64,000 nt of DNA from an uncultured Dehalococcoidia bacterium (GTDB taxonomy: Bacteria; Chloroflexota; Dehalococcoidia; Lucifugimonadales; CAJWUJ01), in contig CAJWUJ010000002.1 in NCBI GenBank assembly GCA_913047625.1, positions 98,175-162,174 on the forward strand, given 5' to 3'. The first letter of the stretch is position 1; every line of letters begins with the position of its first letter. Made by a program: the position numbers and the translations under genes. The notes under the pieces were generated by a model. That model ran no database searches and was not told where the DNA came from. It was given only the letters and a program-made list of their open reading frames with translations. This document shows positions 25,974-28,918 of this stretch, in pieces.

Positions 25974-26816
25974 TTATGCAACGGGCATGGCGTGAGATAC
26001 TCCGATCATACTATCTCTCGTTACTAATTTGGCAGCTTGGTCCTCTGAGAGACTTTCAACACCTTCAGGTATTTTGGGAATAACTAAGTAACGTACGTCT
26101 GCTGTGCTATCCACTACTCGCAGTTTTACCTGTTCATCTAGGGGTAATCCCATTTCTAAAAGTACCTGTCGAGGTTCGGCTACGACCCTTTGCCTATACA
26201 CCATGCTCTTATACCATTCTGGTGGTTCTCCGAGGAGAGCTCTTGGATAACAGGAGCATAACGTACATACCACCACATGATGGAGAGTAGGGGTGTTTTC
26301 TACTATGCGGAACTCCACATGCTCTTCCAGTGCTATGCCCATTTCACTGATAGCGGAACGAGCATCACTCAGAAGTCTGTTCTTGTAATCAATATCCAAC
26401 CATGCTTTAGCCACAACACTGGCTCCGAGAGCGTGCGTGCGTTTTTCGTTGGTTGACACCTGGTCTTGAATTTCCTGATATGAGGTTATATTTTTAGCTA
26501 CTAAAAGTGAAGCAAAGGCTCGTACAGCGTTTTCATAGGTTGAATGCTCTGGAATTTGCATAGTATCTATTTGCTCTTGAATTTCACTTTGCACAAGAAC
26601 GTTTTTTTCCACGCAAATGGCAATCAATGCCCGAATGCGGTTTTCAAAGTATGGATCATAAGGCGTGTTAAAGTCCTCTATTGTTCTACGGACTTCGTCT
26701 GTAGTCAGGATACTCTGCCGCCGAAGAATTTCACTCAAGGCTATGGCTTGTTTGTCATATTGGGAAAGTTCGTGTTCGCTGGTATCGATGTATGGACCGT
26801 GGTGTACATTAGACAT
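25974..26816 (-). CDS. nitrile hydratase alpha subunit-like protein with N-terminal triple beta-N-like repeat
   Basis: C-terminal half: VVVCTLCSCYPRALLGEPPEWYKSMVYRQRVVAEPRQVLLEMG..VRYLVIPKIPEG..LVTRDSMIGV (CTLCSC claw setting). N-terminal about 130 aa: three 37-aa repeats. Confidence 0.88.
   Translation of the reverse strand: MSNVHHGPYIDTSEHELSQYDKQAIALSEILRRQSILTTDEVRRTIEDFNTPYDPYFENRIRALIAICVEKNVLVQSEIQEQIDTMQIPEHSTYENAVRAFASLLVAKNITSYQEIQDQVSTNEKRTHALGASVVAKAWLDIDYKNRLLSDARSAISEMGIALEEHVEFRIVENTPTLHHVVVCTLCSCYPRALLGEPPEWYKSMVYRQRVVAEPRQVLLEMGLPLDEQVKLRVVDSTADVRYLVIPKIPEGVESLSEDQAAKLVTRDSMIGVSHAMPVA
26427..26759 (-). repeat. three tandem 37-aa coding repeats (residues 20-56, 57-93, 94-130 of the NHase alpha-like protein)
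   Basis: YDKQAIALSEILRRQSILTTDEVRRTIEDFNTPYDPY / FENRIRALIAICVEKNVLVQSEIQEQIDTMQIPEHST / YENAVRAFASLLVAKNITSYQEIQDQVSTNEKRTHAL, counted as 37 residues each. Confidence 0.8.
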
Positions 26817-26837
26817 ATTTGCGTACCTCTCAGGGAG

Positions 26838-27152
26838 TTATTTTTTTGGACCGGGACTTAACCAGTGTTCAAAGATATCCATCATTAGTTCATCCGAAGG
26901 CAAGATATCTTTGCTTATTTCCACGTCTGTATACTTGAAGAGAACAGAATAGAGTGTTTGTTCAGGAAGTCCATTGTTTCCGTATGCAAGTTGCTCCGGA
27001 TTCTTAAATTTACCATGAATTTTTTCGATTCGGCCTTCCTTTCCGTAGATATAGCTGGGAGTACGGTGGTGGTGAGTAACCTTGCGAGATTGAACTATTA
27101 CAGTATCCCCGATTCCAAACTGTTGTCCCATACAGTTGCCTCCAAATTTCAT
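26838..27152 (-). CDS. nitrile hydratase beta subunit C-terminal (SH3-like) domain protein
   Basis: QQFGIGDTVIVQSRKVTHHHRTPSYIYGKEGRIEKIHGKF..PEQLAYGNNGLPEQTLYSVLF matches the NHase beta C-terminal pattern (GD.V.V.....HtR.P.Y..Gk.G.i...hG....P...a.g.g..pe.lY.V.F). Confidence 0.85.
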   Translation of the reverse strand: MKFGGNCMGQQFGIGDTVIVQSRKVTHHHRTPSYIYGKEGRIEKIHGKFKNPEQLAYGNNGLPEQTLYSVLFKYTDVEISKDILPSDELMMDIFEHWLSPGPKK

Positions 27153-27175
27153 TGTACTAGAAAACCGGACATTTA

Positions 27176-27520
27176 TCAGTCAAAAATACTAAGAGGGAAT
27201 GTGAGTTGAAGAAGGGGCCCTTCCTGATTCATTCCGTACACATCTGTATCTCCTGGACTTCCTGAAGGATAGTGTCTCTTGAGAGTTGCCTTTATAGCGT
27301 GCAAGCTGTCGATATGTTCGAGGACTACTACTTCGCTTTCACTGATGTTATATACTTCGGAAATAGTGCCCTTTGTTATTAAATTATTATCTTTGATTGC
27401 ATAATAGCTAGAGGAATCCCGAAATATAATATCAAGGGTGATAAGAAAAGGACCTGCATTCTTACTTCTGATAACAGAACAAAGATCTTCTAGATGTACA
27501 TTATTGGAATCCGACATCAT
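27176..27520 (-). CDS. DUF4387 (AtuA-related) family protein
   Basis: LEDLCSVIRSKNAGPFLITLDIIFRDSSSYY...AIKATLKRHYPSGSPGDTDVYGMNQEGPLLQLTFPL. Confidence 0.82.
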   Translation of the reverse strand: MMSDSNNVHLEDLCSVIRSKNAGPFLITLDIIFRDSSSYYAIKDNNLITKGTISEVYNISESEVVVLEHIDSLHAIKATLKRHYPSGSPGDTDVYGMNQEGPLLQLTFPLSIFD

Positions 27521-28918
27521 TTAACCAGCCTGTGTTATTTTGATGTCAAAAAGCTCAAGCGGATCACTTATCGGCATCTGATGATAAATTGTAGTTTCGA
27601 AAGTTTCTCCGACATCGATAACATTTGGTGAAAATAAGTAACCTACATTTCCTGCGGTAGTGGTACGGTCTCGATAACGAGAAAATGCTATTTTTAAGGA
27701 TAAGTCTTCTGCGATGTCATGCGAGAGTTGCTGAGTTTCTGAGACAATATCAAGCACAATGCCGATTTCAGTAGGATGAGAAGAAAGAGGTTCTCGAAGC
27801 CCCAGAACAGCTCCTTTCCCATAAACATGATAACGGATAGAAAATTGGCCAGCGGTTTGAAAACTTGCTTCAGCACTACGCTTTTCTTGTGCTAGGATTT
27901 CATCTATCTGCTCTATCATTCGGTGATTTCGTGCTCCGAGAATTGCTATCGTCCTGTATCCTAAGAAAGACACTCCTTCGAGTAAAACCGTATAAGCCTG
28001 CTCGGTGAATTTAGTTCCAGAGACTCTAACGGTGCTTGGTGTTTCTTGAGAAAAAACAGTTGCATGTTTTTCAAGAAGGCCACCAGGGAGTTCTACGATG
28101 GCATGTGACTCTCGTTCATACAGTGAATGGGCGGTCGCAGACTCTACGGAACAAATCATCCCAGGATGCCCGGGCTGAAGAGTAAAGTGATCATCATGCA
28201 TAGTACCTACAATAGGAATTCTGTTAGGGCCCAAGACTTTTGTAACTCCTGTGGTATCCGTCAAGGCGGATTCACCGCATTCCATGATATCGCCCATATG
28301 GATGGAGAGTCCTTTGTCAAACCCTAACATTACAGGATACGCACCGATTGCGCATGAATCTGCCGCTCTTCCTGCGAGCACAACCTGTGCCCCCTGCTGC
28401 AGCGTTTCTATGATCGGTTCGACCCCCATCATAGCCACTATAGTTCTCGCCTGTTCCACTTGTTCAGTAGTGAGTAAGTCACCGAGGAGGGTCGTTGGTA
28501 CCTTTGGCATTTTTGTGCCTTTGAGAAGGGCGTTTTTTACGGTTTGTTTCTCGATATCTGAATAAATGGTGCCTACTGGAAAACTGATACTGTTTTCTTG
28601 GGCGATTTTCATTACAAGGTCAAGGGTGAAGTCAACGTGAGCATTCGCACCTGATCCTCCCGAAGAGCCAAGGATAAAAGGGATACCTCGTTTATGTACT
28701 GCTTCCACGAGAATGATTTCCAAATCCCTTCGCAGATTTGTGAGTGGACTGTGCGGTTTGCCAGTTCCTAGATACCAAGGCCCGATGTCGAAAGATCCGC
28801 CGTCCACAGCGACAACGTCTGGTTTATTGGCGTCAAGCGCTTCAATAAATGCTTCTTTGAAGATGCCCCTATTTCCGATACATCCTGTCGGTGTTAAAAC
28901 GGTTACCGTATTCATCAC
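27521..28918 (-). CDS. acyclic terpene utilization AtuA-like (DUF1446) family protein
   Basis: KPDVVAVDGGSFDIGPWYLGTGKPHSPLTNLRRDLEIIL..., VVLAGRAADSCAIGAYPVMLGFDKG, ECGESALTDTTGVTKVLGPNRIPIVGTMHDDHFTLQPGHPGM. Confidence 0.88.
   Translation of the reverse strand: MMNTVTVLTPTGCIGNRGIFKEAFIEALDANKPDVVAVDGGSFDIGPWYLGTGKPHSPLTNLRRDLEIILVEAVHKRGIPFILGSSGGSGANAHVDFTLDLVMKIAQENSISFPVGTIYSDIEKQTVKNALLKGTKMPKVPTTLLGDLLTTEQVEQARTIVAMMGVEPIIETLQQGAQVVLAGRAADSCAIGAYPVMLGFDKGLSIHMGDIMECGESALTDTTGVTKVLGPNRIPIVGTMHDDHFTLQPGHPGMICSVESATAHSLYERESHAIVELPGGLLEKHATVFSQETPSTVRVSGTKFTEQAYTVLLEGVSFLGYRTIAILGARNHRMIEQIDEILAQEKRSAEASFQTAGQFSIRYHVYGKGAVLGLREPLSSHPTEIGIVLDIVSETQQLSHDIAEDLSLKIAFSRYRDRTTTAGNVGYLFSPNVIDVGETFETTIYHQMPISDPLELFDIKITQAG

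Follow-up and report, generated by a model that had tools for sequence, protein, structure and literature searches.

A nitrile hydratase with the beta N-terminal domain fused to alpha and a separate beta-C gene in a Dehalococcoidia bacterium: a rare variant of a known enzyme

Introduction

The toyocamycin nitrile hydratase (NHase) ToyJKL is a heterohexamer of the form (alpha beta gamma)2, with alpha, beta and gamma subunits of 21.2, 10 and 11.4 kDa (PMC8574189). In Monosiga and other eukaryotes, NHases occur as beta-alpha fusions (PMC2603476, PMC3323583); a survey in 2012 recorded no prokaryotic NHase fusion, and the beta-alpha fusion was then regarded as a eukaryotic trait (PMC3323583). Engineered beta-alpha fusions show altered cobalt maturation and stability and are considered unlikely to undergo subunit swapping (PMC4709657). 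Two residues of beta, Arg52 and Arg157, bind the modified (oxidised) cysteines, and NHase is inactive without them (PMC7587978). We found no paper in open-access text on a fusion of the N-terminal domain of beta (beta-N) to alpha, accompanied by a separate gene for the C-terminal, SH3-like half of beta (beta-C).

Here we describe such a pair of genes in a stretch of 64,000 nucleotides (hereafter, the window) from an uncultured Dehalococcoidia bacterium. The enzyme that they encode is very probably a cobalt-type NHase of three parts (alpha, beta-N and beta-C), in which beta-N has been fused in frame before alpha and beta-C has remained separate.

Organization of the locus

The minus strand of the window carries a run of four genes placed nearly end to end: AtuA, DUF4387, beta-C and a 280-aa NHase protein (Table 1). 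Both NHase reading frames were present at the coordinates given in the preliminary description when the ORFs of the window were checked, and the 104-aa neighbour, which it had taken for the C-terminal half of beta, indeed matches NHase_beta_C (E 2e-17). Judging from the sequence, the better and most likely start of this neighbour is an internal one, Met8 with GGAGG upstream, which would give a protein of 97 aa. The complete metal claw claimed for the alpha-like protein is likewise in place, as VCTLCSCYP in the 280-aa protein.

Table 1. Features of the NHase gene run, in window positions
Feature	Position	Strand	Basis
beta-N::alpha NHase fusion, 280 aa	25974..26816	-	ATG, GAGAGG upstream; Pfam; AlphaFold2 model
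Fusion residues 1-92, complete beta-N domain of the split type without most of the HDxGG N-terminal loop	26541..26816	-	PF21006; tree clade 100/99; alignment
beta-N hairpin 1, residues 19-48 (repeat 1 of the preliminary description), carrying Arg43 (= beta Arg52)	26673..26762	-	DSSP of model; 4fm4_B alignment
beta-N hairpin 2, residues 56-85 (repeat 2 of the preliminary description)	26562..26651	-	DSSP of model
Alpha subunit, fusion residues 93-280	25977..26540	-	PF02979 at residues 94-273, 1.1e-74
Normal N-terminal arm of alpha, residues 93-125 (repeat 3 of the preliminary description)	26442..26540	-	Aligned with 1v29_A from 1v29_A residue 26; alpha arms of relatives score with beta-N HMM
CTLCSC metal claw, residues 184-189	26250..26267	-	Conservation in 50-sequence alignment
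Separate beta-C (SH3-like) gene, likely start 27131 (Met8)	26838..27152	-	PF02211 2e-17; GGAGG before Met8
DUF4387 gene, upstream in the NHase gene run, 23 bp gap to beta-C	27176..27520	-	Domain match
AtuA-family gene, first of the run	27521..28918	-	Domain match

The NHase genes lie within 25 bp of the AtuA and DUF4387 genes (window 26838-28918, minus strand), a pairing not seen near the NHases of the relatives checked. A single protein search found no AtuA, DUF4387 or asparaginase gene beside NHase in the longer loci of relatives that it covered, and a literature search for a published link of AtuA or DUF4387 returned unrelated word matches only.

Domain assignment of the fusion

Pfam assigns residues 16-85 of the fusion to NHase_beta_N (E 1.9e-5) and residues 94-273 to NHase_alpha (E 1e-74), and crystal NHase alpha chains align with it from residue 91. 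That a beta-N-like domain sits on alpha, and that the N-terminal repeats are related to NHase beta, had been proposed beforehand and is borne out by the Pfam match, by the family profile, which matches NHase beta chains (4fm4_B, 2e-21) and the beta chain of thiocyanate hydrolase (SCNase; 2dd4_B, 9e-17), and by the fold of residues 1-92 modelled alone (medium confidence, pLDDT 80), for which the top 23 fold matches are all NHase or SCNase beta chains. The AlphaFold2 single-chain model of the whole fusion (pLDDT 93.3, pTM 0.88) contains the three hairpins listed in Table 1 (DSSP), and its alpha part superimposes on Co-NHase alpha with a TM of about 0.87. In the 50-sequence alignment, C184, T185, C187, S188 and C189 of the claw are invariant and L186 is conserved in at least 90%; a CTLCSC claw within an NHase alpha fold places the alpha part, as far as sequence can tell, among the cobalt-type NHases.

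The alpha model TIGR01323 scores 233.8 bits on the whole fusion, just under its cut-off of 249.85, and the SCNase gamma model TIGR03887 does not reach its cut-off (171.6 vs 291.45 bits). An SCNase or other SCNase-like enzyme, in which the beta-C gene would be the counterpart of SCNase alpha, would agree with the division of beta into two chains, likewise seen in SCNase, and with the alignment of SCNase gamma with the fusion. However, NHase alpha chains outrank SCNase gamma in both the sequence and the fold searches, as the NHase alpha model does in bits, and we consider this identity quite improbable. A third model, TIGR03793 (NHLP leader peptide), matches the fusion at 72.6 bits. The NHLP leader peptide, a RiPP precursor, is defined as being without the metal claw and as ending in Gly-Gly and a core peptide (PMC2887384); this identity is ruled out by the presence of the claw and by the fact that TIGR03793 also matches an ordinary relative.

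The three 37-residue units

The preliminary description recognized, in about 130 residues said to precede the usual alpha start, three repeats of exactly 37 residues, and took them for a beta-N motif that had been triplicated and then moved onto alpha. The likeness and the spacing are real: the units start at Y20, F57 and Y94, exactly 37 residues apart, and their resemblance exceeds that of shuffled sequences (units 2 and 3, 13/37 identical, p<5e-5; units 1 and 2, p=1.5e-4; units 1 and 3, p=0.0015). What does not hold is the period, because hairpins 1 and 2 of split beta-N relatives are mostly 39 residues apart (an approximate motif count); since relatives do not keep 37, the exact spacing is, by this comparison, accidental. 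Nor does the later alpha start hold, for alpha begins near residue 93 (Pfam from 94, crystal chains from 91) and the third repeat lies inside it.

Unit 3 falls within the stretch covered by the crystal alpha chains, which starts at residue 91, and is therefore the ordinary N-terminal arm of alpha. Units 1 and 2 correspond to the pair of helical hairpins present in every NHase beta-N, so that the protein consists of one complete beta-N followed by one normal alpha. The alpha arms of the first-collected relatives also score with the beta-N model, and profile comparison connects the three hairpin families with probabilities of 93, 97 and 99%; on this evidence, the likeness of the three hairpins is a property of the whole NHase family and nothing peculiar to the window protein. 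Triplication would account for three similar 37-residue units, but with the third belonging to a normal alpha arm, the first two making up both hairpins of a normal beta-N, and the hairpin homology being family-wide, it is scarcely credible. That beta-N and the alpha arm are homologous may be relevant to the competition between activator and beta for alpha. Several tandem beta-N-like matches occur in one other genome, apart from its alpha gene (G007:C1:30720-31603).

Beta subunit or activator

The beta-N domain of the window has diverged (33% identity to its best relative). The beta-N tree resolves the activators as one clade and the split beta-N sequences, including the two fusions tested, as a second (100/99 for each); the N-parts of full beta subunits stand apart. 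The same division is visible in two residues: Arg43, which aligns with Arg52 of 4fm4_B, and Glu47 are present in all split or fused beta-N and in nearly all full beta subunits, whereas among activators the Arg occurs in 10 of 27 and the Glu in none. The second active-site arginine lies in beta-C: its Arg30 falls at the position of Arg157 in 1ire_B when the two are matched by ungapped offset, and the residue does not vary among 71 relatives. Hence both active-site arginines of beta, Arg52 and Arg157, are retained according to these alignments.

The N-terminal domain could instead be imagined as a fused activator, that is, a self-subunit-swapping chaperone serving as a maturation factor in cis, which would leave beta truncated. 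Activators and beta-N are homologous and of similar size, the genome has yielded no other activator gene, and TIGR03889 (nitrile_acc) weakly matches 28 of 31 split beta-N members (best 6e-7). Against this, TIGR03888 (nitrile_beta) matches all 31 (best 3e-25), the tree groups the domain with split beta-N, away from activators, and the domain has both Arg43 and Glu47, of which the 27 activators lack the latter altogether and often the former. A fusion of activator to alpha was rejected on the tree and the Arg/Glu columns, and we regard it as improbable.

A subunit role for beta-N is also consistent with the gene complement. The window genome contains a single NHase alpha match and a single beta-N match; no second beta-N or activator gene and no NicO-type nickel/cobalt transporter were found in it, although, the genome being a 91% complete draft, an activator gene could be missing. 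The two prevailing architectures in the order are the classical one (full beta, alpha and a separate activator) and the split one (beta-N, beta-C and alpha as three genes). In the complete genomes tested, the classical type has two beta-N loci and the split type has one, with some alpha arms scoring as well; the split-type NHases of the order therefore seem to have no separate activator, as far as gene content indicates.

Distribution and origin of the fusion

A first scan of genome contigs with the single protein as query found no relatives, and among 72,556 plasmid records no match extended over 80% of the query. An NHase match is present in 105 of 250 genomes of the order, and the fusion occurs in the window genome only. 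The split type is widespread in loci of Chloroflexota, Proteobacteria, Rokubacteria, Binatota and Rubrobacter. The phylum-wide sample contained one further beta-N::alpha fusion (locus L067, in the Chloroflexota genome G262), whose beta-C lies on a different contig. In a scan of GTDB genomes, at least three marine Alphaproteobacteria had the fusion: MarineAlpha3_Bin7 (L123), Rhodospirillaceae SP18 (L131) and SAR116 AH-326-N16 (L139). These are among the best 80 of more than 590 loci, which attests to the presence of the fusion in other lineages but gives no measure of its frequency. Beta-C is the next gene in L123 and was not found near the fusion in L131 and L139; a separate beta-C is thus known for two of the four other fusions (L123 and G262). 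The alphaproteobacterial fusions also fall below the TIGR01323 cut-off, and L067 lies above it. The architecture is consequently not special to the window, and the split of beta that it includes is of an already known kind.

The three fusions of Alphaproteobacteria group as one clade in the alpha tree (100/98), and the window and L067 fusions stand elsewhere among Chloroflexota-type sequences. The AU test weakly rejects a single origin of all five fusions (p=0.041) and does not reject a grouping of the window with L067 (p=0.20), both with long branches; the branch of the window itself measures 0.95-1.6 changes per column, and its exact place in the tree is unsure. The fusion is rare but recurs, and from these trees it has probably arisen more than once.

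The four other fusions likewise join beta-N to alpha. In them, the HDxGG loop is retained and a long linker with His residues is present, whereas in the window the N-terminal beta loop is mostly lost (MSNVHHGPYID vs HDRGGWPTDEPID in relatives) and the linker is absent, as is the His-rich tail before alpha that is common in relatives and at whose place L067 has its linker. Long His-rich N-terminal tails (HTHQGHDHGHDHDGHEHEG), possibly for cobalt, occur in split-type alpha genes such as L111:5856-6512. Together with the long branch and the reliance on a single draft genome, the lost loop might suggest a decayed or misassembled locus, in which the junction is an assembly error or the gene a pseudogene. 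Yet the fusion reads through as a single open frame, has a ribosome-binding site of its own and retains the catalytic residues, the gene order differs from that of relatives in a manner that the loss of a stop codon cannot produce, and the same fusion occurs in other lineages; decay or misassembly is therefore very unlikely.

Other rearranged loci were observed among the relatives. In genome G039, a split-type beta-N lies in frame with an upstream stretch resembling a Cro/CI-type (XRE) HTH, identified by eye (L120:4851-5516, 221 aa), which is possibly a regulator-subunit fusion or two in-frame genes. The beta-C of genome G045 (L103:5350-5823) adjoins alpha and bears at its C-terminus a helical hairpin that resembles hairpin 2 of beta-N or the arm of alpha; no beta-N gene was found in that genome, and the locus is another reshuffled NHase. 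On Rhizobium and Microvirga plasmids (L204 and L205), genes annotated as SH3-like, NHase alpha and SH3-like stand beside CbtA/CbtB or HoxN-type cobalt transporters, an arrangement that suggests a split NHase whose genes run betaC-alpha-betaN; in the two plasmids inspected, RefSeq names the small genes 'SH3-like domain-containing protein'.

A model for assembly and maturation

A three-part NHase with tethered beta-N suggests how the enzyme may be built. In the folded fusion, beta-N would rest against alpha in the manner of the usual complex, and the metal site would lie in the alpha part, where Arg43 of the tethered beta-N and Arg30 of beta-C would clamp the oxidised cysteines of the claw. The product would be a heterodimer, (beta-N::alpha)+(beta-C), probably doubled in the manner of the (alpha beta gamma)2 toyocamycin enzyme, and the hydration of nitrile to amide would be performed by two chains in place of three. 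As a separate activator was not found, cobalt loading is probably the work of the enzyme's components themselves, among them the tethered beta-N, and not of a swap of alpha with an activator. It is tempting, if rather speculative, to go further and suppose that the tethered beta-N inserts cobalt and oxidises the cysteines in cis, replacing self-subunit swapping; the enzyme would then be naturally activator-free, and the order's split NHases, which lack the tether, would represent an intermediate step, in which beta-N is both subunit and chaperone.

In engineered beta-alpha fusions, both cobalt maturation and stability were altered (PMC4709657); a natural fusion for which no activator is visible is therefore a direct test system for the entry of cobalt into NHase. 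The fusion and beta-C also represent a possible compact two-gene catalyst.

Comparison with known systems

Among the known systems, the split three-gene NHases are the nearest: they have the same three domains, their beta-N belongs to the same clade, and no separate activator was found in the complete genomes of the order. Their domains are encoded by separate genes, in the order betaN-betaC-alpha or betaC-alpha-betaN, whereas in the window beta-N is fused; RefSeq labels the products 'SH3-like domain-containing protein' and 'nitrile hydratase subunit alpha'. In the toyocamycin NHase, as in the split loci, beta is divided into two small pieces, each around 100 aa long, a likeness drawn from subunit size. 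Its three chains are separate, whereas in the window one small chain is joined to alpha; accordingly, the window departs from the toyocamycin type, in which beta-N and beta-C are both separate, by its fused beta-N, even though this domain falls within the split clade. The thiocyanate hydrolase of Thiobacillus thioparus shares the split beta and the superfamily fold, but it consists of three separate chains, acts on another substrate and has an activator gene in addition (gene order: PMC7193024). Eukaryotic fusions, like that of the window, place beta sequence ahead of alpha in one chain, sometimes with a His-rich linker; there, however, the whole of beta including beta-C is fused, and here beta-N only. 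Bacteria, too, have thus re-cut the subunits of NHase; this has probably happened repeatedly, apparently with split beta as the starting point. With a split beta already known, and a fusion of whole beta to alpha known in eukaryotes, the window enzyme belongs to a known kind, of which it is a rare recurrent variant, and does not constitute a new one.
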